From IMG/VR virus record IMGVR_UViG_3300034418_009934, positions 1 through 24,505 of that record: 24,505 bases of DNA. One strand, given 5' to 3'. Below, piece after piece: positions 3,601 to 23,658 of this stretch. A program made the position numbers and the translations under genes. The notes beneath the pieces were generated by a model. That model was not told the DNA's origin. It did not search any database and saw nothing but the letters and a program-made list of their open reading frames with translations. Within the stretch, counting starts at the first letter, position 1, and each line of letters begins with the position of its first letter. This DNA is from a virus.

Positions 3601-4784
3601 TGCCTAATCTAGAATATGGCATATCAGGACTTTCTCAGGGAATATTAAATGGATTTGATACCCCTTCTACTCCTACAACTAGAGAAATTTTTTCTAGTAG
3701 AGTAAAGGATATTATTCTAGATCAATCCCACCCAGAATTTAATAATTATGGTGAATGGGCTTCTATAGGTGTAATACTAATTGAGAATGTTAGTCAACCC
3801 ACTACTAATAAAGCCGTAACTCCTGTTTACCCCCTATTTCCTAATATAAAGCATTACCCCTTAATTAATGAAATTGTAACGGTTTTATCTTTACCTTCTA
3901 TAGGATTAGAAACTAATACTGCTAGCTCACGTTTATATTATTTACCTCCTACTAATATTTGGGGAAGTCAACATCATAATGCCATACCAGGAAGTTCTGA
4001 ATTAGCACCTTCCCAACAAAAGGATTATGAACAAACTTCCGCAGGAAGTGTAAGAAAGGTAACTGATGGAGGGACTGAGATTAATTTAGGAGATATTTTT
4101 ATAGAACAACTTGGTATAAATCCTCTTCAACCTTTTGAAGGGGATCATATTATAGAAGGAAGATTTGGTCAATCTTTACGATTTGGAAGTAGTGAAGGTA
4201 AAGATCCCATTACTAAGATTAGGAATGGGCAAGGGGAAGTTACTACTGAGGGGTGGACTACAATTGAAGAAAATATAAATGAAGATAAAGCTTCTATTTA
4301 TCTAACTTCAACACAACAAGTTAATTTAGAACCTAATATCTTTAACTATAACTCATATCATACGGCCCCAGAGGTAATTAAAGATTACTCATCTAATCAA
4401 GTTTTGATTAATTCTGGGAGATTGGTATTAAATGCAAATATTGATAGCGTCTTACTAAGTTCAGCTAAATCCATAAATTTAAATTCACAGGATTCAGTTA
4501 ACATAGATAGTAAAAATCAAGTTATAGTTAATTCACCTAAAATTTTATTAGGGGATAAAAATGCTACTGAACCTCTTTTGTTGGGAAATCAAACAGTAGA
4601 CTTATTAAGAGATGTATTAACCTCTCTTCAATCTACAGTTACTCAACTTTCAGTTCTAACCAGCCTCCCTCCAGGTACTTCTTTTGCTCCACTTAATATA
4701 GAAGCAGCTTCTACTTTACAAAGTTTAGCTACAGCTTTAGCTAGATTAGAGTCCTTAAAATCTCCCAATAATAAAACATTGTAA
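3600..4784 (+). CDS. 5: baseplate central spike protein, gp5/gpV-like
   Basis: A 394-residue protein with the layout of a contractile-tail spike. An N-terminal OB-like domain (about 30-125) contains two beta segments (GVILIENV, NEIVTVLSLP). The linker motif IIEGRFGQSLRFGSS (185-198) is characteristic of gp5/gpV/VgrG proteins. A C-terminal beta-helix (about 262-330) has alternating strands, e.g. VLINSGRLVLNAN, SINLNSQDSVNID and VIVNSPKILLGD. A final coiled segment follows (LLRDVLTSLQSTVTQL). No lysozyme domain is present, unlike T4 gp5 (575 residues), so it resembles the simpler gpV type. It would sit at the tip of the tail tube and pierce the outer membrane. One-base overlaps with both neighbours. 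Confidence 0.82.
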   Translation: MPNLEYGISGLSQGILNGFDTPSTPTTREIFSSRVKDIILDQSHPEFNNYGEWASIGVILIENVSQPTTNKAVTPVYPLFPNIKHYPLINEIVTVLSLPSIGLETNTASSRLYYLPPTNIWGSQHHNAIPGSSELAPSQQKDYEQTSAGSVRKVTDGGTEINLGDIFIEQLGINPLQPFEGDHIIEGRFGQSLRFGSSEGKDPITKIRNGQGEVTTEGWTTIEENINEDKASIYLTSTQQVNLEPNIFNYNSYHTAPEVIKDYSSNQVLINSGRLVLNANIDSVLLSSAKSINLNSQDSVNIDSKNQVIVNSPKILLGDKNATEPLLLGNQTVDLLRDVLTSLQSTVTQLSVLTSLPPGTSFAPLNIEAASTLQSLATALARLESLKSPNNKTL

Positions 4785-5533
4785 TGGCTTCTTCTAAATT
4801 ATTACAAATATTTGCTAAGCAGACCACCCAAACTCAAGAACGTTTGCTCACCCAAATAAAAGGATTACAAAAACAATTTCCTGAAGCTGGGTGTCCTACT
4901 AAGGAAGTTTTACTAAATATAATTAATAAGAGAAATGCTTTAGCAAGTGGGATTAATCAGTTACAAAATCAAGCAGTAAGTGTAAATAGAACGAGTCAAA
5001 TAATAGATAATATTACAACCCCAATCCCTCCTATAATAAATCTTATAAAACTTTTACCTCTTCCTACAGCCTTGCCTGGGGTGACAGCGGGGAATATTAT
5101 TATAGCAGGAGATGTATTAAGTGATTTAAAAGATTTAGTTAAAAAATATAATACTATAGGAGAAGGATTTGGAGTATTATATAATTTTGTTCTTAGAGTT
5201 TTAAATGTTGTAAATAGCCAAATTAAGATTTTAGACACATTAATAGAAAAATGTGCTAAAGAACTTGAAATTCCATATGAGGTAATAAATGGTGAATTAA
5301 ACTCATTGGGTAATGAAACTTTAGAAAATTTATCAACTACAATATATAAGGGTTTTACATTCGAAATAAAGTATGCTAAATTAAATGAAACCCCCTACCC
5401 TAAAAGATTTGCCCAAGCCCGTAATTCAGCAGGGTTAGTAACTTTAACAAGTGATGAATCCTTTGCATCCGACCCAAACGTATTAATAAACGAATTAAAA
5501 TTTATAATTGACACCCAAAATTTAAAAGGGTAA
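4784..5533 (+). CDS. putative virion protein, unknown (249 aa)
   Basis: I do not recognise the family. The N-terminal 75 residues are helical and polar (QTTQTQERLLTQIKGL). A hydrophobic, glycine/proline-rich middle follows (about 78-110, PIPPIINLIKLLPLPTALPG), which could be membrane-active or a buried structural segment. Further helices end in KRFAQARNSAGLVTLTSDES and a short helix. Its position directly after the spike gene and before gp25/gp6, with a one-base overlap to the spike, suggests a hub or tail-tip component. No enzymatic motif is visible. Confidence 0.75.
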   Translation: MASSKLLQIFAKQTTQTQERLLTQIKGLQKQFPEAGCPTKEVLLNIINKRNALASGINQLQNQAVSVNRTSQIIDNITTPIPPIINLIKLLPLPTALPGVTAGNIIIAGDVLSDLKDLVKKYNTIGEGFGVLYNFVLRVLNVVNSQIKILDTLIEKCAKELEIPYEVINGELNSLGNETLENLSTTIYKGFTFEIKYAKLNETPYPKRFAQARNSAGLVTLTSDESFASDPNVLINELKFIIDTQNLKG

Positions 5534-5881: not shown

Positions 5882-6307
5882 ATGGCAATAGAAATAGGAA
5901 ATATACCAGCATTTGACCAGGATCCTGTAGTAGGAATTGGTTTGGCCGTTCCTTTTCAATCCTCCGCTATCTCAGGTTCCGATTCTGTTTTTAGAATTAA
6001 TTATACTACCGCTGAGCAGATTAAGTATAACATGATTAATTATTTTCTTACAAGTAAAGGTGAGAGAGTTTTTAATCCTAATTTGGGTAGTAATATAACA
6101 GGGTATGTTTTTGAACCTAATGATCCTAATACTACTGAGGTTTTAAAGAAAAATATTGAAGATGATATAGCTTTAATATTTCCTATGGTTAAATTAAAAA
6201 AAGTTACAGTTACATCTGATCCCGAATATCATAATATGACTGCTCAAATATTTTATTCGGTATTTTCTAGTTTAAATGAATTTATAGAATTTAACGTACC
6301 ATTATAA
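5882..6307 (+). CDS. 25: baseplate wedge protein gp25
   Basis: The 141-residue protein matches the gp25/TssE family (T4 gp25 is 132 residues). The family core is at residues 50-77: NMINYFLTSKGERVFNPNLG, then GYVFEP. A strand-rich end follows (LKKVTVTSDPEYHNMTAQIFYSV). In contractile tails gp25 joins gp6 and gp53/gp7 at the inner wedge and starts sheath polymerisation. It shares a base with the gp6 start (TAATG), the same gene pairing as in T4. Confidence 0.93.
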   Translation: MAIEIGNIPAFDQDPVVGIGLAVPFQSSAISGSDSVFRINYTTAEQIKYNMINYFLTSKGERVFNPNLGSNITGYVFEPNDPNTTEVLKKNIEDDIALIFPMVKLKKVTVTSDPEYHNMTAQIFYSVFSSLNEFIEFNVPL

Positions 6308-8223
6308 TGCCATACGATTTAATAACTGATAATAACGGGGTTAATAGAAATATTAAATATATTAATAGGGATTTTTCTGATTTTAGAGCTAACCTTATTG
6401 AGTTTGCTAAAACTTACTTCCCTAATACTGTTACGGACTTTAGTCCTACCTCTCCTGGGACTATGTTTATCGAAATGGCATCTTATGTGGGTGATGTATT
6501 ATCTTTTTATACTGATAATCAAATCCAAGAAAATTTTATTCAGTATGCTAAACAAGTAAATAATTTATATGATTTAGCCTACATGATGGGATATAAACCC
6601 TCAGTAACTAGCGCTGCTTCTACAGATGTAGAATTTTTCCAAACAGTGCCTGCTGTTTATAATACAACCTTAGGTCAAAATGTCCCTGATTTTAGATATG
6701 CTTTAGTTATAAATGAAAATACAGAATTATCTGGGGGGGAGGGAAATAACTTTATAACCCAAAATAGAGTAGATTTCAGTGAATCTAGCTCTTTAGATCC
6801 TACTATAGTATCAGTATATGAAATTTCGGGTGATCAACCTATTTCATTCTTATTAAAGAAAACCACGAAAGCTATATCAGCCACTATTAATATAACTACA
6901 ATTACTGTAGGAGAACCTGAAAGGTTTGCTACTTATAATTTCTTATTACAACGTCCTTTAGGAATTTTAGATGTTACAGATAGTGATGGAAATGAATGGA
7001 CTGAGGTAGATTATTTGGCCCAAGAAACAGTATTTGAGACCATAAAAAATACTAATCCTTTCCCTAATGATCCTAATACCCAAAATGATGTCTCAGAAGT
7101 AGATAATCTTTTAAGGCTAAAAAAAGTACCCAGAAGATTTACAACTAGATTTCTCAGCAGTAATAATTTAAATAGTGGTTCTGCTACATTACAAATTCAA
7201 TTTGGTGCAGGTAGTGTGGATGATTATGATGAACAAATTATCCCAAACCCCAATAATGTAGGAATAGGTTTACCTTATACTCAAGATAAACTTACTACAG
7301 CTTATTCCCCTTCAAACTTTATGTTTACAAAAACATATGGAGTTGCTCCTTCTAATACTACTCTAACTATAAGATATTTAACAGGGGGAGGAATTGGATC
7401 TAACATTCCCGCTAATACTTTAAATACTGTTAATACTACATCCAACGTATTATTTGCTACGGACAACTTAGATTCTACTTTAGCTCAAACTACTTTTGAC
7501 TCTTTAGCAGTAAATAATCCTAATCCTGCTACTGGCGGGGGGAATGGAGATTCAGTTCAAGATTTAAGGGTGAATTCCTTAGCTAGTTATGCTTCCCAAT
7601 TAAGAAGTGTAACCCAAGAAGATTACCTTATTAGAGCTTTAAGTTTACCTTCTCAGTATGGATCCTTAGCTAAAGCTTATATAGAACCCCAAAAACAAGA
7701 CTCCCTCCTTCCAGGTGAAAAGGCTTCTATATTAGATTTATATGTTTTAGCTTATAATGATGATAAAAAATTAACAAGTACGTCTAATGCTTTAAAACAA
7801 AATTTATCTACATACCTGTCTCAATACAGAATGATAAATGATTCTATTAGAATTAAAGATGCCTTTGTTATAAACATAGGAGTTAACTTCGAAATTGTAG
7901 TATTACCTAACTTTAATAGTAATGAAGTACTTACTCAATGTATATCTAAATTAAAAGAGTACTTTAATATAGATAATATGCAAATTAATCAACCTATATT
8001 AATTAATGAATTATACTTATTGTTAAATTCAATAAAAGGAGTTCAAAATGTTAAAAAAATAGATTTTGCAAATAAAGTAGGAGAAAGTTTAGGTTATTCA
8101 AAGTATGCTTATGATATAAGTGGAGCTACTGCCAATAATGTAGTTTACCCTTCACAAGATCCTTCAATTTTTGAAATTAAATTCCCCAACACTGATATAA
8201 AGGGTAGAGTAGTACCATTATAA
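6307..8223 (+). CDS. 6: baseplate wedge protein gp6 (baseplate J-like)
   Basis: The 638-residue protein is close to the length of T4 gp6 (660) and follows gp25 as in T4. The N terminus has the family signature: YINRDFSDFRANLIEFAKTY (18-37), then FSPTSPGTMFIEMASYVGDV (45-64), a helical dimerisation segment that leads into the J-like core. A central motif, ASQLRSVTQEDYLIRALSLP (about 427-446), is the typical baseplate-J hinge, and a C-terminal domain follows with IDNMQINQPILINELYLLLN. It forms the inner iris ring of the baseplate that opens on infection. Only one of its 18 arginine codons is CGN. Confidence 0.93.
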   Translation: MPYDLITDNNGVNRNIKYINRDFSDFRANLIEFAKTYFPNTVTDFSPTSPGTMFIEMASYVGDVLSFYTDNQIQENFIQYAKQVNNLYDLAYMMGYKPSVTSAASTDVEFFQTVPAVYNTTLGQNVPDFRYALVINENTELSGGEGNNFITQNRVDFSESSSLDPTIVSVYEISGDQPISFLLKKTTKAISATINITTITVGEPERFATYNFLLQRPLGILDVTDSDGNEWTEVDYLAQETVFETIKNTNPFPNDPNTQNDVSEVDNLLRLKKVPRRFTTRFLSSNNLNSGSATLQIQFGAGSVDDYDEQIIPNPNNVGIGLPYTQDKLTTAYSPSNFMFTKTYGVAPSNTTLTIRYLTGGGIGSNIPANTLNTVNTTSNVLFATDNLDSTLAQTTFDSLAVNNPNPATGGGNGDSVQDLRVNSLASYASQLRSVTQEDYLIRALSLPSQYGSLAKAYIEPQKQDSLLPGEKASILDLYVLAYNDDKKLTSTSNALKQNLSTYLSQYRMINDSIRIKDAFVINIGVNFEIVVLPNFNSNEVLTQCISKLKEYFNIDNMQINQPILINELYLLLNSIKGVQNVKKIDFANKVGESLGYSKYAYDISGATANNVVYPSQDPSIFEIKFPNTDIKGRVVPL

Positions 8224-8232
8224 AAATAAATT

Positions 8233-9357
8233 ATGGCAGTATATAAATTATTCCCAGAAAAAGACTCAACAATCTATTCAGAATTCCCCTCTATGAATAC
8301 AGGGTTGGATGAAATATTGGAAGTTTCTACTTTTTATAATTCTATCTCTCCCGAAGTAAGCAGATACTTAATTAAATTTTCTCAAGATGAAATTAATGAT
8401 TTACTAGAAAATAAAGTTGGAGGTAACATATTTCAAGTTAATTTAAGAAATTATATAGCCAATATTACAGGAATTAATGCTAATACCACTCTAGAAGTAT
8501 GGCCCATCTCAGGTTCTTGGAATATGGGTACAGGGAGGTATTCAAATAATCCTATTACTACTAATGGGGTTTCTTGGACTTATAGGTCAAGTGAGGGAGT
8601 AAATGCTTGGCCCACTTCTTATAATACTTATGTAACTGCTTCTTATAGTGGATCTAACACAGGAGGAGGAACATGGTACACAGGTTCTTCTTTAGGATTA
8701 GAATTGACAGCTTCTCAAGTATTAAGTTACTCAAGCGAAAAAGATTTAAATGTTGATGTTACTAATACTATATTAACTTGGTATAGTTCATCTGATAGTA
8801 GGGTAAATAATGAAGGATTTATAATTAAACAAAGCAACAATGATGAATTTATAGCAGATAGAAATAGTGTTACTACTGTAAAATACTTTTCTATAGACAC
8901 CCATACTATATACCCACCGCAACTCGAATTCAAATGGCAGGATTACATATATAACACTGGTTCATCGTCTAATACAATTATTAATACATCCCGAATGATG
9001 GCTACATTAGATAATAATGCCGGTACTTATAGAAGGGATAGTGTTGAAAAAATTAGGATTAATTCTCGACCTCAATTTCCCCAAAGAGTATTCCAAACAA
9101 GTTCGATTTATACTACAAATTATTATCTCCCCACAGCTTCATATTATGCTGTTAAAGACTTAGATACTAATGAATTTGTAATTGATTTTGACACAACTTA
9201 TACTCAAATAAGCGCAGATAGTGAAAGCAGTTACTTTACTCTCTATATGAACGGGTTGGAACCAGAAAGATATTATCAAATTTTAATTAAAACTAATATT
9301 GGTGGTGAAACTTTAGTATTAGATGACAATTATTACTTTAAAGTTATAAATGGCTAA
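8233..9357 (+). CDS. virion protein with DNRLRE/CBM96-like domain
   Basis: Residues about 8-235 look like a DNRLRE (CBM96-like) beta-sandwich domain. DSTIYSEFPSMNTG comes near the start, then RYLIKF, a strand NTTLEVWPISGSWNMGTG, the ITTNGVSW element and DLNVDVTNTILTWYSS. NEGFIIKQS and closing PPQLEFKW complete it. This order is the family's pattern, best known from extracellular and cell-surface proteins. The C-terminal part (236-374) is a separate beta-rich domain ending YYQILIKTNIGGETLVLDDN. Lying between gp6 and the 1207-residue wedge protein, it is probably a peripheral baseplate protein, perhaps carbohydrate-binding. It occupies a place where T4 has no such domain. The family call is from motif reading and not confirmed by a search. 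Confidence 0.68.
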   Translation: MAVYKLFPEKDSTIYSEFPSMNTGLDEILEVSTFYNSISPEVSRYLIKFSQDEINDLLENKVGGNIFQVNLRNYIANITGINANTTLEVWPISGSWNMGTGRYSNNPITTNGVSWTYRSSEGVNAWPTSYNTYVTASYSGSNTGGGTWYTGSSLGLELTASQVLSYSSEKDLNVDVTNTILTWYSSSDSRVNNEGFIIKQSNNDEFIADRNSVTTVKYFSIDTHTIYPPQLEFKWQDYIYNTGSSSNTIINTSRMMATLDNNAGTYRRDSVEKIRINSRPQFPQRVFQTSSIYTTNYYLPTASYYAVKDLDTNEFVIDFDTTYTQISADSESSYFTLYMNGLEPERYYQILIKTNIGGETLVLDDNYYFKVING

Positions 9358-9733
9358 TCATTCTACACATAATTCAGGAAGTGAGCTAAAGTTAAGTAAA
9401 AAACTTTATAATAAATCAGCTTACCTTAATACTATTAATAATTCATTTACTGAGTTACTTCCTGTAGTACCGGTTTCTCCTGTGGATGATGTAAGTGTAG
9501 GAGAATTTTTCCAAATATATGATAATTTATTTTATGAAATTCCTAAAAAAGGAGAAGTAAATTCCCATGAATATTTAATTAAACAAAGTACAGATTATAT
9601 AGGAGCTCAAGATGTTTCTAATGAAATACAAGCTTTATTAGACGAAATAACATTTTTAAGAGAAGAAAATCTTACTTTACAACAAAATATTATAGATCTA
9701 ACAACAGATGATAACACTAACACCACTCAATAA
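9350..9733 (+). CDS. putative baseplate-associated coiled-coil protein (127 aa)
   Basis: No family recognised. The N-terminal half is polar with SAYLNTINNSFTELLPVVPV, the middle has FFQIYDNLFYEIPKKG, and the C terminus (about 88-118) is a coiled coil (EIQALLDEITFLREENLTL). It overlaps the upstream gene by 8 bases and the downstream 1207-codon gene by 26 bases, the longest overlap between well-supported genes in the window. It may be a small partner of the large wedge protein. Function unknown. Confidence 0.72.
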   Translation: MANHSTHNSGSELKLSKKLYNKSAYLNTINNSFTELLPVVPVSPVDDVSVGEFFQIYDNLFYEIPKKGEVNSHEYLIKQSTDYIGAQDVSNEIQALLDEITFLREENLTLQQNIIDLTTDDNTNTTQ

Positions 9734-12700
9734 CCCCGAGGGAGTAACCCAACAAGAATATAATTCTTCCCAAGAGGTACTTATTCCTGTGGTGAATTCT
9801 ACTTCAGAATTTAACCCTGTTACAGATAAAGTAATTTTTTCTGTTGAATCTCCTACTGCTGAGTTGTTAGATAGTAGACAGATTTATAAGTATACTATAA
9901 GAAATTATAAAAATACTTTAAATGAAAATGAAATTTCTTCAGTAGTAGTATATCCTGAAAATGATGCCAAAGAAACAGGGTATGATGAAGGTAATTTTAA
10001 TGTTTATTATAATTTTTATAGAACAGGGCTTAAATCTGATGAATATAAGTTTTTTATTCAAGAAATTTCTCCTAGTAGGACTGAATTAAGGCTTTCTGTA
10101 AATAATGTTTCTAATGAAGAGATTAGTTCTTTAGTACAAGAATTTCAAATCCAATTAGAAGGTATAGATTTTAAAGATTTTTACATACAAGTAAAAGGGA
10201 GATATTATATAGCTAATAATATCTTATTAGATACTACTTCAGTTCCTAATACTATTTTAATAAAATTATATGAACCTTTACCAACCTCAATTACTAGAAA
10301 TACTCAATTACAAGTAGTATTTGAAGTAGCTGAGACTGTAGGATTTAATATAAACTTTCCCCCTATTCCTATTAGGATAGAAGAGGATATAGAATATATA
10401 AAAGGTCCCAACTTTAGCTACCAATTATCAGATCAAGTAAATAATTCAACTTTAGAGCAAGATTATAATTCTTTAATCAATAATAATCAATTAACTTCTT
10501 CTTATAATGAGTTAGAAAATATTTTAAATCAAAAAGGAATTAAAGTTAATATAGATTATTCTAATTTTGATAACTTTATTCAATTTAGTTCTGCTGAACA
10601 AAGATTAAGGAATTTTTATTATAAAGTAGGGCAAATAGAAGAATATAATACTAATATAGCCCTTATAAATTCTATTACAGGTTCTACCTCATCCTCTTTA
10701 CAAACATCTTCTAGTAGGACTACATATGAAGCCCAAATAACAGATATAATAAAGAATTTTGATGGATATGAAAATTATCTCTACTACACCTCAGGAGCTT
10801 TGGCTTATCCTAAATCAAATTCTACTCAACCTTATACTTTACAATCTACAGGAAGTAGTGAAGTATTAACTTGGTTAGGAAGTACAAGTGAAACTTCTAG
10901 TAATTATGGGGGTAGATTACTTACAGCATCTTTTTATGATGATGAAAATCAAGATAACTTATTAAATACTATTCCTAATTACTTAAGAGAAGATCCTGCT
11001 AATGCAGGTTATGAACTTTTCTTAAATATGATAGGTCAACATTTTGATATAATTTATTCATATATTAATACTATAACAGAAAAATATAATGCTGATAATA
11101 GGTTAGATTATGGTATATCAAAAGATTTAGTTGCTGATGCACTAAGAGGAGCAGGATTAAAATTATACCAAAACAACTTTTCTTCAGATAATTTATATTC
11201 AGCATTATTAGGGATAAATGCAGAAGGAAATTTATTACCCCCTACAGGATCAGAAGTAATTGAAACTTATGTTACTGCTTCTAATAGTGCAATTCCTTTA
11301 GAAAATATAAATAAAGAAACTTATAAACGTTTATATCATAATTTACCCTATATTTTAAAGAAAAAAGGTACCGTTGAAGGTTTAAGAGCTTTAATTAACT
11401 GTTTTGGTATCCCCGATACTATTTTAAAAATTTCTGAATTTGGGGGGAAAGATAAAGATAACTCAAATGATTGGGATTATTTCCAAAACAAATTTAATTA
11501 TGCTGCTTACATTAGTAGTTCATCGCCTAATAGTAATGTAGAAATAAACTGGAATGTAAATAATAATTGGAATAGTTATGGTGATAATCCTGAATCTATA
11601 TTTTTTAGGTTTAAATTAGAAGATACTCTCCCCTCAGAAAATAAGTATAGTATAGTTTCTTATAACGAAGGAGCAGGCCTATTTTATCTAACTTTAGACT
11701 ATACTGGATCTGGTTATAGTAGTGGGTCCTACCCAGGTTCAATTCCTTCTGCTTCTAAGGATTATGCTACTTTATCTTTATGGAATAACACTACTAAACT
11801 TACTAGTATTGATGCTCCTTTTTATGATGGGAATTGGTGGGGAGTTCATGTTGCTAGAGAAGGAGTATTTACAAATGCAGAAGTGGTTTTAAGAGCTGCT
11901 AATTCTATATATAATGGGAATGATGGGTTTAAAATAGGATATGCTACTAGTAGTATTATTATAGATGATTTCCAATCATGGATTAATCCATTTTTTGCTA
12001 AAATTAATTTTTTCTATGATAGTAATATTAGTGTTCCCTTAGGGGGAAATAACTATTATGGGTTAACTGGATCCCTTCAAGAAATAAGATTTTATAATGT
12101 AACTCAAAGTGAAGCTACATTCCATGATTATGTAATGAATCCTTATTCTATTGAAGGCATCAATTATTCATCATCTGCAGATAATCTTATATTTAGAGCT
12201 CCCTTAGGAAGTGATTTAAATACCTCTACAGGTACTTTGGTTTCAATTCATCCCAAAATAACAGGTTCATATGTTACTAATTCATTTAATAGTAATAGTA
12301 ACTATACTGTTAATTCTGGTGTGGTTTTTTATCCCCAAACCGAAACTATTTATTATGATCAACCTGCAGTAGGTATTAAAAATCGTATTTCTGAAAAGAT
12401 TAGGACCCAAGAGTTAAGTTTACCTTCAACTGGTGATACTTTATCTCCTTATAGAAGCATTCAACAAAACTACCCCCAAAGCAGTAGTGCCTATACCAAA
12501 GATATTAATTATGTTGAAGTAGCACTTTCACCCCAAAACGAAATTAATGATGACATTAATGCTAGTTTAGGATACTTTAATATAGGGGATTATATTGGAG
12601 ACCCCCGCCAATTCACATCAGCATCTACTTCATATCCTGATTTGGATAGATTACGAGATTCTTACTTTGAGAAATATTATAAAAATTATAATTGGAAAGA

Positions 12701-13331
12701 TTATATAAGACTTATTAAATATTTTGATAATTCTTTATTTAAAATGGTACAAGATTTTGTACCTGCAAATTCAGGGTTAGCTACGGGAGTTGTAATTAAA
12801 CAACACTTATTAGAAAGAAATAGACAACGCCCCGCACAAGTTGAATTTTCTCAATATGATTATAGTTCTTCTATAGAATCTGGGTTTATAAGTGGGGGAA
12901 CTGGGGGTACGTTTAGTGAATTAAATGTATTAGGCAATAATCCTGAAGGTCAATCCCAGGGTTATACTAATAAATTGGCTCCTTTTGTTACCCAAAGTTG
13001 GACATATGATGTAGATACTCAATTTGGACCTCAAATATTAACTCAATCTACTCAAGATGAATTTTATAATGGGGAATTTAGCGGTAGTAATTTTATAGCT
13101 ACTACAGGGGAATTAAATGATGAAAATACTTCTAAAAAACCATCTGTTATAGAAATTAATTATGATATTATATTTTTTACTAGTAGTGTAACCCCTTTAT
13201 CTCCTTTTACTAATCCTTCATCAGCACCCAATCAAGGTGAAATATATTTATGGTATGATACTGGAAGTTATGTTAATCCGGGACAAGGAAATCCTACTAG
13301 TGAAACTCAATTATCATCTTTAGGGGGATAA
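9708..13331 (+). CDS. large baseplate wedge/tail protein, gp7/gpI-like with LamG-type insert
   Basis: The 1207-residue protein sits in the T4 gene 7 position (T4 gp7 is 1032 residues). Residues 1-310 are beta-rich repeats. Residues about 420-580 resemble the gpI/gp7 wedge core: LREDPANAGYELFLNMIGQH, then RLYHNLPYILKKKGTVEGLR and ALINCFGIPDTILKISEFGG. A lectin-like LamG/concanavalin-type domain follows at about 605-815 (SIVSYNEGAGLFYLTLDY, then LTGSLQEIRFYN). A second conserved helical block is at about 980-1040 (YFDNSLFKMVQDFVPANSG, IKQHLLERNRQRP). No later in-frame methionine occurs for several hundred codons, so ATG 9708 is chosen despite the overlap. It probably bridges gp6/gp25 to the peripheral baseplate, with the lectin-like insert exposed. 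Confidence 0.72.
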   Translation: MITLTPLNNPEGVTQQEYNSSQEVLIPVVNSTSEFNPVTDKVIFSVESPTAELLDSRQIYKYTIRNYKNTLNENEISSVVVYPENDAKETGYDEGNFNVYYNFYRTGLKSDEYKFFIQEISPSRTELRLSVNNVSNEEISSLVQEFQIQLEGIDFKDFYIQVKGRYYIANNILLDTTSVPNTILIKLYEPLPTSITRNTQLQVVFEVAETVGFNINFPPIPIRIEEDIEYIKGPNFSYQLSDQVNNSTLEQDYNSLINNNQLTSSYNELENILNQKGIKVNIDYSNFDNFIQFSSAEQRLRNFYYKVGQIEEYNTNIALINSITGSTSSSLQTSSSRTTYEAQITDIIKNFDGYENYLYYTSGALAYPKSNSTQPYTLQSTGSSEVLTWLGSTSETSSNYGGRLLTASFYDDENQDNLLNTIPNYLREDPANAGYELFLNMIGQHFDIIYSYINTITEKYNADNRLDYGISKDLVADALRGAGLKLYQNNFSSDNLYSALLGINAEGNLLPPTGSEVIETYVTASNSAIPLENINKETYKRLYHNLPYILKKKGTVEGLRALINCFGIPDTILKISEFGGKDKDNSNDWDYFQNKFNYAAYISSSSPNSNVEINWNVNNNWNSYGDNPESIFFRFKLEDTLPSENKYSIVSYNEGAGLFYLTLDYTGSGYSSGSYPGSIPSASKDYATLSLWNNTTKLTSIDAPFYDGNWWGVHVAREGVFTNAEVVLRAANSIYNGNDGFKIGYATSSIIIDDFQSWINPFFAKINFFYDSNISVPLGGNNYYGLTGSLQEIRFYNVTQSEATFHDYVMNPYSIEGINYSSSADNLIFRAPLGSDLNTSTGTLVSIHPKITGSYVTNSFNSNSNYTVNSGVVFYPQTETIYYDQPAVGIKNRISEKIRTQELSLPSTGDTLSPYRSIQQNYPQSSSAYTKDINYVEVALSPQNEINDDINASLGYFNIGDYIGDPRQFTSASTSYPDLDRLRDSYFEKYYKNYNWKDYIRLIKYFDNSLFKMVQDFVPANSGLATGVVIKQHLLERNRQRPAQVEFSQYDYSSSIESGFISGGTGGTFSELNVLGNNPEGQSQGYTNKLAPFVTQSWTYDVDTQFGPQILTQSTQDEFYNGEFSGSNFIATTGELNDENTSKKPSVIEINYDIIFFTSSVTPLSPFTNPSSAPNQGEIYLWYDTGSYVNPGQGNPTSETQLSSLGG

Positions 13332-13346
13332 AAAATAAAATAAAAA

Positions 13347-14366
13347 ATGGCAGCAGCACCACCAGATAATCCAAATTATGGTCAAGTCTTTACTAAAGGG
13401 GTAAAATATATAAAAATCCACAAATTAGACAAGGACGGGGAGAACTATGGACCCCAATTAGCTTCTGCCGATAAAATTAAAATAAATTATAATGATATTG
13501 GATCCGTCCAGTATGATATATTAACTACCCAACAACAAGGGGATTATTACTTAATGGGAATTATTCCCCAAGAAAATACTTCTTCTTTAAATAATGTTAA
13601 AGATTGGGGTGTTAATTTAGTAAAATCTCCTCTTTCTGAGACTATGAACCCTTTTGATGTTGTTGTTTTTAACAATGATAATCAAGGTATAATGACAGTA
13701 GTAGGAGGAAATGGGGGAGGATATTATAATACTATTAGTGGGTTATATTCATTTAATTTGGGTAATGTTCCTCTTTCTGTTACTTCTAGTATATCTGTAA
13801 CTTCAGTAGTAGGTTCTCCAATTTATATTTCTGTTTTGATTCCTTCTTCTAGTGTTGATGCTTGGGTAGAAGGTCTTCCTCCTAACTTATGGGAAGTATA
13901 TGGGGTACAAGCTTTAAATGCTATACCTATAAGTGGGGGAGGTGGGGTGTATACTGTAGAAAGTAGTTTAAATGATAATTTTGGGGGAGATTTTTATATA
14001 GGAGGAGTTAATTTAGCCTTTTCGGGCAATTCATTTACTCTTATGTATGTCTACGAAGAGATAAATCAAGGCCAATTACCCTTTGATTCCTCTGATGAAG
14101 GATTGTTGAATATATATCCCGAAGTTAATAATTTTGCCTATTCCGATTATAATGCTATATTAGGAAATGCTACTATTCCTCAATTTTCAACAGTTTATCA
14201 AGATGTAGACTATGCTAGTAATGGATTTATTCCTATTAATTTTGATTTAATTACTAGCGGATCAGCAAGAAAAGCCCAAATTCAAGATTCAAATTATACT
14301 CAAGCAGGATGGACTAATGGTAGGTATAATGGAAGTAAAAATAGTTCAACAGATTTTAATCAGTAA
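13347..14366 (+). CDS. putative virion protein (339 aa)
   Basis: A beta-rich protein of unknown family. The N-terminal third (VKYIKIHKLDKDGENYG, then YYLMGIIP) looks like a small globular domain. The middle is glycine-rich beta (GGNGGGYYNT, PISGGGGVYTVESSL). The C-terminal 80 residues (YNAILGNATIPQFSTVYQDV and a Ser/Asn-rich end) have the low-complexity, aromatic-spaced look common in tail proteins. Leader AAAAATAAAATAAAAA-ATG. It lies between the gp7-like and fibre genes, so a peripheral baseplate or tail role is inferred. Confidence 0.72.
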   Translation: MAAAPPDNPNYGQVFTKGVKYIKIHKLDKDGENYGPQLASADKIKINYNDIGSVQYDILTTQQQGDYYLMGIIPQENTSSLNNVKDWGVNLVKSPLSETMNPFDVVVFNNDNQGIMTVVGGNGGGYYNTISGLYSFNLGNVPLSVTSSISVTSVVGSPIYISVLIPSSSVDAWVEGLPPNLWEVYGVQALNAIPISGGGGVYTVESSLNDNFGGDFYIGGVNLAFSGNSFTLMYVYEEINQGQLPFDSSDEGLLNIYPEVNNFAYSDYNAILGNATIPQFSTVYQDVDYASNGFIPINFDLITSGSARKAQIQDSNYTQAGWTNGRYNGSKNSSTDFNQ

Positions 14367-18694: not shown

Positions 18695-18934
18695 ATGGCA
18701 AAACAATTAAAAAAAATATTCGATCCAAGTGTTGATGAAGTAGTACAAGATTTTACTATTAATTCATGGCACGTTTCTCAATCGGTAGATGCTCTTACTG
18801 GAGCTGAGGATTATGATATTACTATAAGTGGCAGTTTAGAAGTTGAAGGGCCTGTAAATTTTACAGATTTAGCCAACACTTCAGGTGTAAATAAGATATT
18901 AGTATTAGATGGTACATCTGTAAAAACCCAAGCT
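18695..18934 (+). repeat. direct repeat, copy 1: fibre N-terminal coding region
   Basis: The first 80 codons of the two fibre genes align without gaps. I count 63 of 80 identical residues, and 51 of 59 over the first 59. This stretch pairs with 20390-20629. The N terminus of tail fibres normally docks to the baseplate, so conserved ends with divergent tips fit two fibres sharing one attachment site, or two types competing for it. Confidence 0.85.
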
Positions 18935-20362
18935 GGGGGTGCAGATGGCTCATCTGGTACTTCTGGAACATCAGGAACATCGGGAACAGGTACTAATGGT
19001 AGTTCAGGTACTTCAGGTACTTCAGGTGTTTCAATAGCAGGACCTGCAGGAAATGATGGATCATCAGGAAGTTCAGGAACTTCAGGTACTTCTGCGGGGT
19101 CAACTATAACAGGATTAAATACTCAAGTTTTATATTTTGATGGAGATGATAATCCTGTAGGGGATCATAATCATACTTGGGATAAAATAAATGGTTCATT
19201 AAGAATTATGACTACCCAAACTGATGATACATCTAGTTTAGCTAATTTAATTTTGGGTAATGCTGTATCTCAAAGTTTATTAACAACAGGAGCATCTCCT
19301 AGAGATTTAGCTGTAATTAAAGGTATTAACCCCTCAGGTTCTGCAGGGGTTCATCATAGTACTATCAAATTCAAAACAGATGGAGATTGGTCATTTAAAG
19401 GAGGAATATATGAATCACACCCTTCTGCAATTGAATTTAATACTTGCCCTGCAGGGACCTATCAAGTTCCCCAACCCGGCCTAAGAATAGATTCTAATCA
19501 ACAGATTATTTTAAATGGGTACAATAATACAAATGGGTATAGATTTGTTTCATCTAGTAATGTAGAATATAATTTAGCGGTTGATGAGAGTGGTAATGTA
19601 ATTATGGCCCAACCTACAGGAGGAACTAGTCAAGATTTAGGAACTGTTGATATGTGTACTTACTATAATAATATGTCAGGGTATACTATAAATACTTTAG
19701 GGCAAGTAGGAAATGATATTGTTACTGTAGGGGATACTAACCCTGCTAATATTTCTTTAATTCAAATAGGATATAGCACTAATGCTACAAGACAAAGAGC
19801 CCTTAAAGCTTTACTAGCTCCTGATGATTATGGTAATTCTAAGGCTACCCGAATTGAATTTAGAGCAGGAAATACACCTAAAAGTACATGGACTATAAAT
19901 TCTATTACTGATAATACTGCTAATAGTAAATTTGTATTAGCTGTAACTAATACTACTGTTGGAGGAACCCTAGTTAATAATAATTCTGTTAGTGAATTTA
20001 ATTTAACAAGAGGAGGAGATATCAATAATAATAACTGGTTTGTTAAATTAGATAATAATATTAATAATGCTGTGATGGATAATCTTAATAATCCTAGTAC
20101 GGCTACTATTGATGTTTATTGGGATATTTCTACTTCATTCCAATCTCAACTACAAACAGGAGATAATATTATTATTACTTCAAAACCTAATGTAGGAGAT
20201 ATGACTTATAATTATACTTGGTATAATAATGGGAACCTTAATGGTATAGGTTTAGGAGCTATTAATAATGGTGAACCTTATATAATGAAGTTTATGTATT
20301 GGAATATAAGTGCTGATAATGATTATGGTTTAATGTTATTAGGAAATAGAAGTTATGCTTAA
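18695..20362 (+). CDS. tail fibre protein 1 with short collagen-like tract
   Basis: A 555-residue fibre-like protein. The N-terminal 80 residues (MAKQLKKIFDP, SWHVSQSVDALTG, DITISGSLEVEGP) are near-identical to the next gene and probably attach to the virion. A Gly-X-Y-type tract (about 82-133; GTS, GSS, GPA and GND triplets with two interruptions) would form a collagen-like trimeric shaft. A middle domain (HSTIKFKTDGDWSFKGG, then LRIDSNQQIILNGY, YNLAVDESGNVIM) is shared with the second fibre. The C-terminal 200 residues are specific to it, except a closing FMYW motif common to both. Receptor binding by the C-terminal half is inferred from the family layout. Confidence 0.82.
   Translation: MAKQLKKIFDPSVDEVVQDFTINSWHVSQSVDALTGAEDYDITISGSLEVEGPVNFTDLANTSGVNKILVLDGTSVKTQAGGADGSSGTSGTSGTSGTGTNGSSGTSGTSGVSIAGPAGNDGSSGSSGTSGTSAGSTITGLNTQVLYFDGDDNPVGDHNHTWDKINGSLRIMTTQTDDTSSLANLILGNAVSQSLLTTGASPRDLAVIKGINPSGSAGVHHSTIKFKTDGDWSFKGGIYESHPSAIEFNTCPAGTYQVPQPGLRIDSNQQIILNGYNNTNGYRFVSSSNVEYNLAVDESGNVIMAQPTGGTSQDLGTVDMCTYYNNMSGYTINTLGQVGNDIVTVGDTNPANISLIQIGYSTNATRQRALKALLAPDDYGNSKATRIEFRAGNTPKSTWTINSITDNTANSKFVLAVTNTTVGGTLVNNNSVSEFNLTRGGDINNNNWFVKLDNNINNAVMDNLNNPSTATIDVYWDISTSFQSQLQTGDNIIITSKPNVGDMTYNYTWYNNGNLNGIGLGAINNGEPYIMKFMYWNISADNDYGLMLLGNRSYA
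18938..19093 (+). repeat. Gly-X-Y coding repeat, fibre 1
   Basis: Short in-frame nine-base repeats of the form GGT-ACT-TCA encode mostly GTS and GSS triplets. Two interruptions (TN, and IA before GPA-GND) break the period. It is shorter and less regular than the tract in fibre 2. It is protein-coding, not a CRISPR or regulatory repeat. Confidence 0.8.
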
Positions 20363-20389: not shown

Positions 20390-20629
20390 ATGGCAAAACA
20401 ACTGAAAAAAATATTTGTTCCTACTACAGATGAAGTAGTACAAAATTTTAAAATACAATCATGGCACGTTTCCCAATCTGTGGATGCCCTAACGGGGAAT
20501 GAGGATTATGATATTACTATAAGTGGTAGTTTAGAGGTTGAAGGACCTGTAGATTTTACAGATTTAGAAACTACAACAGGTCAGACTTCAGTTTTAGTTT
20601 TAGATGGTACTTCTGTAAAGATTCAAACA
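20390..20629 (+). repeat. direct repeat, copy 2: fibre N-terminal coding region
   Basis: Ungapped partner of 18695-18934 at an offset of 1695 bases. Nucleotide differences are spread through the copy, many of them at third positions, so the duplication is not recent and the protein end is under selection. Confidence 0.85.
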
Positions 20630-22252
20630 ACTACTTTAGGTACTTCAGGTTCTTCAGGCACTTCTGGTATTTCAGGTACTAGTGGTTCTTCAGGTTCAAG
20701 TGGAACTAGCGGAAGTAGTGGTTCATCAGGAACTTCAGGTTCATCAGGTTCTTCAGGAAGTAGTGGAACATCAGGTTCATCTGGCTCTTCAGGAACATCA
20801 GGTTCTTCAGGCTCAAGTGGAACTAGCGGAAGTAGTGGTTCATCAGGAATTTCAGGTTCCTCCGGTACTAGCGGAACAGATGGAGCTGATGGAGTTCCTG
20901 GAACTTCTATTACAGGTACTCAATACCAAATGATATACTTTAGTGCTACAGATACTCCAACCGCTACTAGTAATCTAACTTGGAATGATTCTGCTAACTT
21001 TTTTAATGTTGTAGGATTTACTAGAATTTTTAACCCAGTACCTACTTCAAATCCTACCTTACAATTACAGACTGGCGTAGTGAATGTAGAAACAGATACT
21101 TTATTGGGATCTTTAGTGGGTTATAATGGTTGGGAAAGCAATACCAATTATTCACCTTCTATAAAATTTGAGGGTGATGGAACATGGAGTGGTACTTTTC
21201 CTCCATCATACCCCACACGAATTGATTTTCTTACAACAGCAGAAGGTGCTTCTGCAGCTTCTACACGTTTAAGAATTAAAAATAATGGTCAAATTATACT
21301 TTCTAATTACACAGGAACTAATTTTATAGAAACCCCTACATATAACTTAGCGGTTACAGGTACGGGGAAAGTAGTTAGAGAAAGTAGAAATTATGCTGGA
21401 AATAATTATAGTATTGTTAATCCTGATAGGGTTGATTATAGAAGTACAACTGTTAACCTTTTAAGACCCGATGGGGATACAGGTACTGATGTTTATTCTT
21501 TTGAATTAGCTAGTAATATTGTTACTGAAGTTCCTCTTGATGGTGAAGTTTTAATTCAATCTTTGACTAAAGCCCTAAACGGAAGAATGAAAATAGCTAT
21601 AAATGACAACTCAGCTTCTTTTGCTTCTTCAGGTAGTAATAGTATTGTACCTATTTCAGGATCACAATTAAAAATTGGAGAGGGTTCTACTAACTATGCT
21701 ATATATAATATAACGAACGTTACACACTATAGTGATGCCCTAATTCCTTATGTTGATTTAATAGTAAATTATGATAGTGAAGTAGGATCTTCTGTATTTA
21801 CTAATAGAGGTAATATCACAGGACATTTTAAACTTTCAGGTGACGCTCATTATCTTTTAAGTAATTACTATACAAGACTTACTCTAGGTAATCTTTCAGA
21901 GGATCAAGATTTTTTTGCCTTTGGGGTTGATGAAGATTTTAGAAATACCTTAAATTCTGGGGATGAGTTAATTGTAGATGCTAAGTGGTTTAGCGATATT
22001 AGTTTTGGTACTAGTGGAAATGCTGTTGATTTACTAGCTGAATTCACTTACAATCAGGGATTACCTTTTAAGAGACTTAAATTGATAAATCAAGATGGAG
22101 GTGCTAATTTAGCACAAATTAGTAATACCCAAGGAAACTGGGGAAGACCTATACAAATTAAATTTATGTATTGGGAAAGGTCTACTGATGAATGGGGGTT
22201 ATTACCTACAGCAATTCAAGATTATAGAGACGCTGCAATCGTCCCAGTATAA
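20390..22252 (+). CDS. tail fibre protein 2 with long collagen-like tract
   Basis: The 620-residue paralogue of the preceding fibre. It has the same N terminus (63 of 80 residues), then 30 consecutive Gly-X-Y triplets (residues 84-173), nearly all GTS or GSS, ending GTD-GAD-GVP-GTS. The homologous middle domain follows (YSPSIKFEGDGTWSG, LRIKNNGQIILSNY, YNLAVTGTGKVV). The C-terminal 270 residues are distinct (VPLDGEVLIQSLTKALNGRM, then IKFMYWERSTDEWGLLP), with only the FMYW motif shared. A trimeric shaft with a receptor-binding tip is the likely design. Most triplets lack proline, so shaft stability must come from other contacts. Confidence 0.85.
   Translation: MAKQLKKIFVPTTDEVVQNFKIQSWHVSQSVDALTGNEDYDITISGSLEVEGPVDFTDLETTTGQTSVLVLDGTSVKIQTTTLGTSGSSGTSGISGTSGSSGSSGTSGSSGSSGTSGSSGSSGSSGTSGSSGSSGTSGSSGSSGTSGSSGSSGISGSSGTSGTDGADGVPGTSITGTQYQMIYFSATDTPTATSNLTWNDSANFFNVVGFTRIFNPVPTSNPTLQLQTGVVNVETDTLLGSLVGYNGWESNTNYSPSIKFEGDGTWSGTFPPSYPTRIDFLTTAEGASAASTRLRIKNNGQIILSNYTGTNFIETPTYNLAVTGTGKVVRESRNYAGNNYSIVNPDRVDYRSTTVNLLRPDGDTGTDVYSFELASNIVTEVPLDGEVLIQSLTKALNGRMKIAINDNSASFASSGSNSIVPISGSQLKIGEGSTNYAIYNITNVTHYSDALIPYVDLIVNYDSEVGSSVFTNRGNITGHFKLSGDAHYLLSNYYTRLTLGNLSEDQDFFAFGVDEDFRNTLNSGDELIVDAKWFSDISFGTSGNAVDLLAEFTYNQGLPFKRLKLINQDGGANLAQISNTQGNWGRPIQIKFMYWERSTDEWGLLPTAIQDYRDAAIVPV
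20639..20908 (+). repeat. Gly-X-Y coding microsatellite, fibre 2
   Basis: 270 bases encode 30 uninterrupted Gly-X-Y triplets. Synonymous codons vary (GGT/GGA/GGC, TCA/TCT/AGT/AGC), but a 37-base stretch beginning at about 20696 recurs exactly 117 bases (13 triplets) downstream from about 20813. This shows that the tract grew by in-frame duplication. An alternative frame stays open across it only because of the repeat. Confidence 0.88.
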
Positions 22253-22734: not shown

Positions 22735-23658
22735 ATGATAAATCATCTACTAGTAACCCTAGTTGATTCCGTTTTAGGAAAAGGTAACCAAACTGCTAGA
22801 GGCAACTATGCTTACCATTGTCCCTTCTGTAAACACCATAAACCTAAATTAGAGGTCAATTTTACAGAAAATAAAAAAGGACACAACCCTTGGCATTGTT
22901 GGGTATGTAACACCAGGGGAAAAACCATTCCTAATTTACTTAAAAAAGCGGAAGCATATGATAAAATTGAGGAAGCTAAAAGATTAATACCTCAGGGTTC
23001 ATTTGTTGAAGAAACAATATTAAAACATGATTTATTCCTCCCTAAAGAATTTACTCGTTTCATAGATAAACCATCCAGCTTAATGGCTCGACATGCTCTT
23101 GCTTATTTAAAGAGTAGAGGAGTAACTATGGAAGATATGATAAAATATAATATGGGGTATTGTGAGGAGGGAGAATACCAAAATATGATTATTATCCCAT
23201 CATATGATGCTCAGGGGGATTTGAATTATTTTACAGCACGAAGTTTCGAAAAACAACCATTCCGTAAATATAAAAACCCATCAGTATCTCGCGATATTGT
23301 GCCGTTTGAAATGTTTATAAACTGGGATAGCCCGTTGGTATTGTGTGAAGGACCATTTGATGCCATAGCCATCAAACGAAATGCTATCCCGCTTTTAGGA
23401 AAAAATATACAAACAAACTTAATGAAAAAAATAGTATCATCTAAAGTAGAAAAAATATATATCGCTTTAGATAGTGATGCTATAAAATCTGCATTGAAAT
23501 TTTGTGAAATGTTTATGAATGAAGGGAAGGAAGTCCACTTATTAGAAATGGACGATAAAGACCCAAGTGAACTAGGATTCAAACGTTTTACTGAACTTAT
23601 TCAAAAATCGGTTCCATTAACTTTATCCGGGCTTTTGAGTAGAAAACTAGCACTATGA
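22735..23658 (+). CDS. 61: DNA primase, T4 gp61-like
   Basis: A 307-residue primase of T4 gp61 type (342 residues). A zinc-binding domain has paired CxxC motifs: C29-PF-C32 in HCPFCKHHKP and C55-WV-C58 in WHCWVCNTRGK. A linker follows, then a TOPRIM domain with E205 in LVLCEGPFDAIA, D246 and D248 in IYIALDSDA, and MDDKDPSE (about 272-279). These acidic residues bind the metals for RNA primer synthesis. It would act with a gp41-like helicase, not present here. Its stop overlaps the next ATG (ATGA). Seven of twelve arginine codons are CGN. Confidence 0.9.
   Translation: MINHLLVTLVDSVLGKGNQTARGNYAYHCPFCKHHKPKLEVNFTENKKGHNPWHCWVCNTRGKTIPNLLKKAEAYDKIEEAKRLIPQGSFVEETILKHDLFLPKEFTRFIDKPSSLMARHALAYLKSRGVTMEDMIKYNMGYCEEGEYQNMIIIPSYDAQGDLNYFTARSFEKQPFRKYKNPSVSRDIVPFEMFINWDSPLVLCEGPFDAIAIKRNAIPLLGKNIQTNLMKKIVSSKVEKIYIALDSDAIKSALKFCEMFMNEGKEVHLLEMDDKDPSELGFKRFTELIQKSVPLTLSGLLSRKLAL

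Follow-up and report, generated by a model that had tools for sequence, protein, structure and literature searches.

The wedge protein Gp119 of phage Vp4 (Herelleviridae) contains carbohydrate-binding folds that are absent from its homologs Deep-Blue Gp177 and A511 Gp105, and GFP-Gp119 decorates host cells whereas Gp177 does not (PMC11406892). In siphophages, a carbohydrate-binding insertion in evolved Dit proteins is reported to aid adsorption (PMC10688798). The loop Val129-Glu151 of gp32 of phage A-1(L), together with the insertion domain of gp31, anchors the long tail fiber (PMC10966104), and two sheet loops of TssG, the proposed gp7/gpI counterpart in the type VI secretion system (T6SS), each anchor a TssK trimer (PMC6300606). 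Here we describe a 1,207-residue protein encoded in a viral stretch of 24,505 nucleotides (IMG/VR record IMGVR_UViG_3300034418_009934, positions 1 to 24,505; the window). It is best read as a wedge subunit of the gpI/gp7 type from a contractile-tail baseplate; a domain with a LamG-type fold interrupts it at a single hairpin and has been exchanged in place among related phages.

Results

The open reading frame (ORF) and its parts are as follows.

9708..13331, + strand: ORF of the wedge protein, read as gpI/gp7-type with a LamG-type insert; 1207 residues
9708..10727, + strand: N-terminal region, residues 1-340, common to insert-less homologs
10905..11462, + strand: core helices, residues 400-585, with KGT at residue 553 and the post-KGT strand ISEFGG at residue 575
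11490..12362, + strand: LamG/pentraxin/concanavalin A (ConA)-type sandwich, residues 595-885, the exchangeable module as judged from model and trees
12510..12842, + strand: conserved block, residues 935-1045, with the return strand VEVALSP at residue 936 and the FVPAN helix at residue 1017
12891..13328, + strand: variable C-terminal tail, residues 1062-1207

An AlphaFold model of residues 400-1062, built from 32 sequences, had an overall mean predicted local distance difference test score (pLDDT) of 57.8; the insert was confident and the rest poor. Across model residues 191-480, the 29 ten-residue blocks had mean pLDDT values of 60-94 with two exceptions (44 and 38), while the core and second block lay mostly below 60. 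Foldseek returned 16 matches to the insert at E<=0.001, including neurexin and SHBG LG domains, headed by the tailspike 6w4q (1e-5), 3mw3 (2.8e-5), and 1lho (5.5e-5). The best VIA match was PAPP-A (Z 15.3, root mean square deviation [rmsd] 3.9, 207 residues), with 4dqa, pentraxins, and laminin/neurexin-type LG domains among the further ones, and the VIA matches spanned model residues 196-486, that is, residues 595-885 of the protein. Both programs thus place a ConA-type beta sandwich here. Long uncharacterized relatives from uncultured viruses were found in BFVD (for example, A0A218ML37, with 697 alignment columns and 30% identity). None of 28 insert sequences matched a LamG Pfam family at E<=1, and our claim is therefore one of fold and not of sequence family: in the predicted model, the insert is a LamG/pentraxin/ConA-type sandwich at the fold level only.

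Relatives are encoded at 63 distinct IMG/VR loci, including one whose product is identical to the window's protein (L numbers denote loci throughout). In L001, L058, L060, L064, and L066, the segment corresponding to residues ~588-893 is missing while both flanks align; KGT lies at residue 553 and the GG strand at residue 575 in both the window's protein and L001, whereas the return strand lies at 936 in the former and at 636 in the latter. Four profiles (N-terminus, core, insert, and block), run over all loci, identified 158 proteins with core and block (a count that includes copies of one contig fetched twice), 51 with the insert and 107 without. The 154 that also had the N-terminus were thinned at 88% identity to 96 rows, 25 with the insert and 71 without; these ratios are not natural frequencies, since two of the three family scans were seeded with insert-less sequences and one kept 80 of 580. 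Such presence and absence among homologs is the pattern taken to mark tail proteins decorated with carbohydrate-binding modules (CBMs). The linker from core to block measured 45-76 residues in 64 rows without the insert versus 310-423 residues in the 25 rows with it; seven insert-less rows were set apart from this measure because of a late block match, among them L216, which has another domain there. Its occurrence in 25 of 96 thinned rows as one discrete size class led us to reject a chance or assembly origin of the insert. Within the loci scanned, the insert profile matched wedge proteins only.

On a tree built from the N-terminus, core, and block, the LamG label can be explained with two changes (shuffled mean, 22), and a single origin of the insert is possible. 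The clade that includes the window comprises 23 rows (support, 98) with no insert-less row inside. L002 and L003 form long branches on this scaffold tree; we did not accept them as proof of one origin, as a LamG profile built without them misses both at default filters. With filters off, that profile found L002 at 5e-5 (best of 400 shuffles, 0.77) and L003 at 0.13; blastp of the same pieces gave 6e-6 for L002, but 175 of 400 shuffles also had some match at E<=1.

Within the clade, related phages have swapped the LamG module in place while keeping their own scaffolds: LamG trees contradict the core and N-terminal trees for three groups (L012/L052, L005, and L018). The p values of the approximately unbiased (AU) tests given here are only indicative, as the groups were named after the trees had been seen. 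The LamG domains of L012/L052 group with L033 (support, 100), whereas their core and N-terminus group with L005 (98 and 99); the LamG grouping is rejected by the core data (AU p 9e-4) and the N-terminal data (0.033), and the core grouping is rejected by the LamG data (p 4e-47). The LamG domain of L005 groups with L007-9 (support, 97), against its core (p 2e-8) and N-terminus, and that of L018 groups with L013/L016 (support, 100), against the N-terminus (3e-4) and marginally the core (0.049). Identities follow the same division: L012 and L005 share 0.76-0.80 in the N-terminus, 0.86 in the core, and 0.85-0.96 in the block versus 0.21-0.58 in LamG, while L012 and L033 share 0.33-0.38, 0.49-0.64, and 0.76-0.78 in these regions versus 0.64-0.72 in LamG. 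Outside the wedge gene, the upstream gene of L052 is 83% identical to that of L005, and its first downstream gene is nearest that of L005 (66%); L033 has no separate ORF corresponding to this downstream gene and does not rank among the top seven relatives for any of the other four downstream ORFs of L052. The upstream gene of L018 likewise follows its core partner (83% to L007). Over 44 close pairs, median identity was 0.89 for core and block, 0.73 for the N-terminus, 0.64 for LamG, and 0.44 for the C-terminal tail.

The insert lies in the hairpin that follows the KGT helix; the post-KGT strand precedes it, and the next conserved strand comes after it. The 191-residue gp32 of A-1(L) (8kea_c, "wedge protein gp32," encoded in Nostoc phage A1) has KGS at residues 107-109, then the stretch 129-151, and then FEILLPR. 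By this order of motifs, and not by superposition, we read the LamG domain as probably occupying the same point of the chain as the Val129-Glu151 loop. A docking role has to be weighed because that loop helps to hold the fiber in A-1(L).

A second AlphaFold model, of residues 338-772 of the insert-less homolog from phage immuto (73 sequences; mean pLDDT, 69), was used for the scaffold. Foldseek gave 21 matches at E<=10 and none at E<=0.001 (best E, 0.098), with all of ranks 1-5 being contractile-tail baseplate structures (A-1(L), phiKZ, Pam3, P1, and a Streptomyces injection system), rank 1 being 8kea_c, and three further matches coming from the phi812 baseplate. In VIA, 8kea_c was again best (Z 5.9, 165 residues), but with an rmsd of 17.3, and chain BJ of the T4 entry 5iv5 matched at Z 3.2 over 91 residues at 3.6 Å (chain residues 702-896). 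Entry 5iv5 contains gp7, with which we identify chain BJ by its length (1004 residues). For a gpI-type fold, with its helices, KGT helix, beta-hairpin, and P-A/S-R helix, these are weak matches. The second block follows the core after the short linker in insert-less relatives, and residues 400-585 and 935-1045 are therefore best read as one unit, the block forming the rest of the same gpI-type fold.

The best local alignment of the core to a corrected gpI profile (P2 gpI and 11 relatives, with 80 P2-type loci left out as near-copies) had an E of 0.03 and a probability of 1.6%, at KGT and with KGT in register; the controls reached 0.63 (N-terminus) and 0.61 (LamG). With a first gpI profile that contained one wrong ORF row, the values were 0.066 for the core, 0.25 for the N-terminus, and 0.64 for LamG. 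Profile-profile comparison with T4 gp7 gave probabilities of 0.1-0.2%; gpI against gp7, compared from the gpI alignment with the wrong row, likewise reached only 0.1%, and the test is thus blind for this wedge class. With the full 1207-residue protein, neither Pfam nor PHROGs gave a match at E<=1; Pfam, PHROGs, and NCBIfam scans of core and insert yielded no informative family, and PDB sequence searches with both gave no lead. Among relatives, family scans found one domain, Fib_succ_major in L216, besides a match at chance level in L003, and 1 of 73 core-family members matched an unnamed PHROG (7e-4). Pfam Tail_P2_I (PF09684) exceeded its 20.6-bit cutoff in none of four records, the L003 homolog reaching 12.7, and was absent from the matches of all 73 core sequences at E<=1; membership of this family is not claimed.

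Gene order, agreement of the top fold matches, and the register of the KGT motif together make a gpI/gp7-type wedge subunit the best reading of the protein. The initial annotation had proposed a gpI-like core (residues 420-580), a lectin-like domain (605-815), and a second conserved block (980-1040). Structure prediction recovered both the core, weakly but consistently, and the concanavalin-type sandwich, and the bounds are now 400-585, 595-885, and 935-1045; the comparison it proposed with T4 gp7 gave a weak structural match, to the 5iv5 chain taken to be gp7, and nothing of significance by sequence profile against gp7 or P2 gpI, a comparison that gpI and gp7 fail as well.

Other ORFs around the wedge gene are the following.

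5882..6307, + strand: gp25/W-like wedge subunit (Pfam PF04965, 3.6e-8; phrog_261, 4.6e-18)
6307..8223, + strand: gp6/J-like wedge subunit (phrog_219, 1.9e-14)
13347..14366, + strand: ORF of 339 residues with a detached C-terminal module, its last ~80 residues matching the C termini of long-form wedge proteins

The gp25/W- and gp6/J-like genes lie upstream of the wedge ORF, and the gp6/J-like protein is 45.7% identical to an annotated baseplate wedge protein of Flavobacterium phage immuto. Two genes, for proteins of 374 and 127 residues, separate the gp6-like gene from the wedge ORF, which is alignable from residue 1 with close homologs. The 374-residue protein (8233-9357) has no Pfam match over cutoff, and an ORF of 372-378 residues occupies this position in all 23 homologous loci compared. 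A tblastn search with the wedge protein found six phage records (four Flavobacterium immuto, Microcystis phage Mel-JY01, and one 484-kb uncultured phage). Mel-JY01 likely has a LamG insert, with weak support, and it and its host are the only cultured pair with one among the records found. The window phage probably has separate fibers, because immuto, whose genes follow the same order, has two later ORFs annotated as tail fiber and tail spike. Farther downstream in the window, two paralogs (18695-20362 and 20390-22252) have near-alike starts and GSSGTSG-type repeats, and a CPFC...CWVC pattern near the start of 22735-23658 may mark a primase-type zinc finger.

The last ~80 residues of the 339-residue ORF are 57.5% identical (7e-24) to the C terminus of the long-form wedge protein of L016. 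Twenty of 24 sequences (the window and 23 loci) had enough downstream DNA for comparison: where the separate ORF was present, the wedge protein lacked the match (10/10, window included), and where it was absent, the wedge protein had it (10/10). The 339-residue ORF thus carries a detached C-terminal module of the wedge protein.

Other domains were seen on the same scaffold. A Fib_succ_major domain lies just after the return strand in L216 (locus positions 4754-5356; Pfam 7.5e-44), and another, 55% identical to it, lies inside the core in L254 (3395-3982); a search of these two loci, as opposed to full contigs, for a diversity-generating repeat at the Fib_succ_major inserts found no direct repeats of >=50 bases. 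The loop that holds this domain in L254 has an extra insert of ~65-70 residues in L036, L051, and L054 (residues ~520-590). Ten long C-terminal tails were scanned, and three matched a family at E<=0.001 while seven matched nothing. The three matches, all in wedge proteins that lack the insert, were to PT-HINT/Hint-type (L210, 5087-7099), WD40-type (L258, 5042-8434), and BACON (L260, 5036-7543) families.

Discussion

Our results favor, by a modest measure, a gpI/gp7-type wedge protein whose lectin-fold domain serves as a swappable module for close-range adhesion, with a sugar or glycoprotein as the presumed ligand. The domain, within a segment of ~350 residues, takes the place of the ~50-residue linker of insert-less relatives and is absent from sister lineages. 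By analogy with A-1(L) gp32, and with T4 gp7 as a second analogy, each wedge would display one copy, and hence each baseplate six. The domain would point toward the cell surface, bind a host glycan or glycoprotein there, and act in addition to the separate fibers. A part that determines tropism would be expected to be exchanged in this way, as a single domain at a single site and independently of its scaffold.

Several findings weigh against this interpretation. The LamG-type domain is not recognized by any sequence family in Pfam, other family, and PDB sequence searches; all core fold matches fall below Z 8 in VIA, several with an rmsd of 17-19 Å, and the profile comparisons of the core with gpI and gp7 are not significant. 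As to exchange, the core test for L018 is marginal, the groups were chosen with the trees in view, and a fourth conflict, L046, is weaker and is not rejected by the LamG data (p 0.073). The fastest-diverging region is the C-terminal tail and not LamG. Finally, the 23-row clade shows no loss of the domain, which also fits a structural role.

That last point bears on the chief rival, which we regard as unlikely though a serious contender: the LamG domain may be an enlarged docking platform that holds a fiber or another baseplate protein and makes no contact with the host. Its chain position, as read from motif order, is that of the gp32 loop, which holds the A-1(L) fiber jointly with the insertion domain of gp31, and loops 1 and 2 of TssG similarly anchor TssK trimers; the fourth downstream gene of L018 follows its LamG partner (75% to L016), as a docking partner would. 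In L052, however, the LamG domain has been exchanged, yet neither the upstream gene for ~375 residues nor the downstream genes follow the LamG partner, a comparison that covers the neighboring genes, the fiber genes lying too far downstream for these loci. The domain might instead be a passive spacer or decoration, occupying a gap in a large baseplate and having no specific ligand. A passive part would hardly account for the repeated exchange of the domain alone, and we consider this reading improbable, even though no family match implies ligand binding and insert-less relatives exist, one of them in a cultured phage. Least probable of all, in our judgment, is that the protein belongs to another class of large LamG-bearing baseplate protein. 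The nonsignificant gpI and gp7 profile matches, the silence of Tail_P2_I, and the two genes between the gp6-like gene and the wedge ORF would all fit such a class, but the five top Foldseek ranks are baseplate structures led by a wedge protein, KGT is in register with gpI, and a sequence test that fails for gpI against T4 gp7 says little.

Returning to the adhesion module, we tentatively suggest, with somewhat less than even confidence, that the fiber-docking loop of the wedge evolved into an exchangeable receptor-binding domain built into the protein, giving the wedge itself a share in host choice, and that the scaffold may be a general display platform, with LamG at the hairpin, Fib_succ_major domains at two further loops, and propeller, BACON, and Hint-type domains on the tail. 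If this is true, host choice in a large, mostly uncultured phage group would be partly encoded in the baseplate core, outside the fiber genes on which host prediction usually relies. Relatives that naturally have, lack, or have exchanged the module at one loop offer a ready-made comparison set, and the insertion site connects phage wedges to TssG of the T6SS, in which loops of the sheet hold TssK, a receptor-binding-like protein.

Among the open-licence PMC papers listed in our searches, none was seen, from its title or the start of its abstract, to report a LamG domain within a wedge protein of the gpI/gp7 type. T4 gp7 is not known to have a LamG domain; it resembles the window's protein as a large gpI-type wedge protein that aligns over 91 residues, and differs in being encoded directly after gp6 and in that sequence profiles do not connect the two. 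A-1(L) gp32 is the best Foldseek match of the core and shares the loop by motif order, but with 191 residues and a fiber-anchoring loop of 23 it is too short for a lectin domain (PMC10966104). TssG, as the proposed gp7/gpI counterpart, has two sheet loops each with a TssK trimer; its loops, however, are peptides and not domains, and it belongs to a secretion system (PMC6300606). Evolved Dit proteins share an insertion in a core tail-tip protein that is present or absent among relatives, but they are distal tail proteins of noncontractile tails in phages of lactococcal hosts (PMC10688798). The closest precedent is Vp4 Gp119, in which a wedge protein with a carbohydrate-binding module is already in print; it is another wedge subunit (BW3, of the A511 Gp105 type) with CBM16- and xylanase-CBM-like folds, and the available part of that report describes no in-place exchange (PMC11406892). 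The window's protein is distinct from both Vp4 Gp119 and evolved Dit in the fold of its insert, the subunit that carries it, the insertion site, and the exchange of the domain in place.

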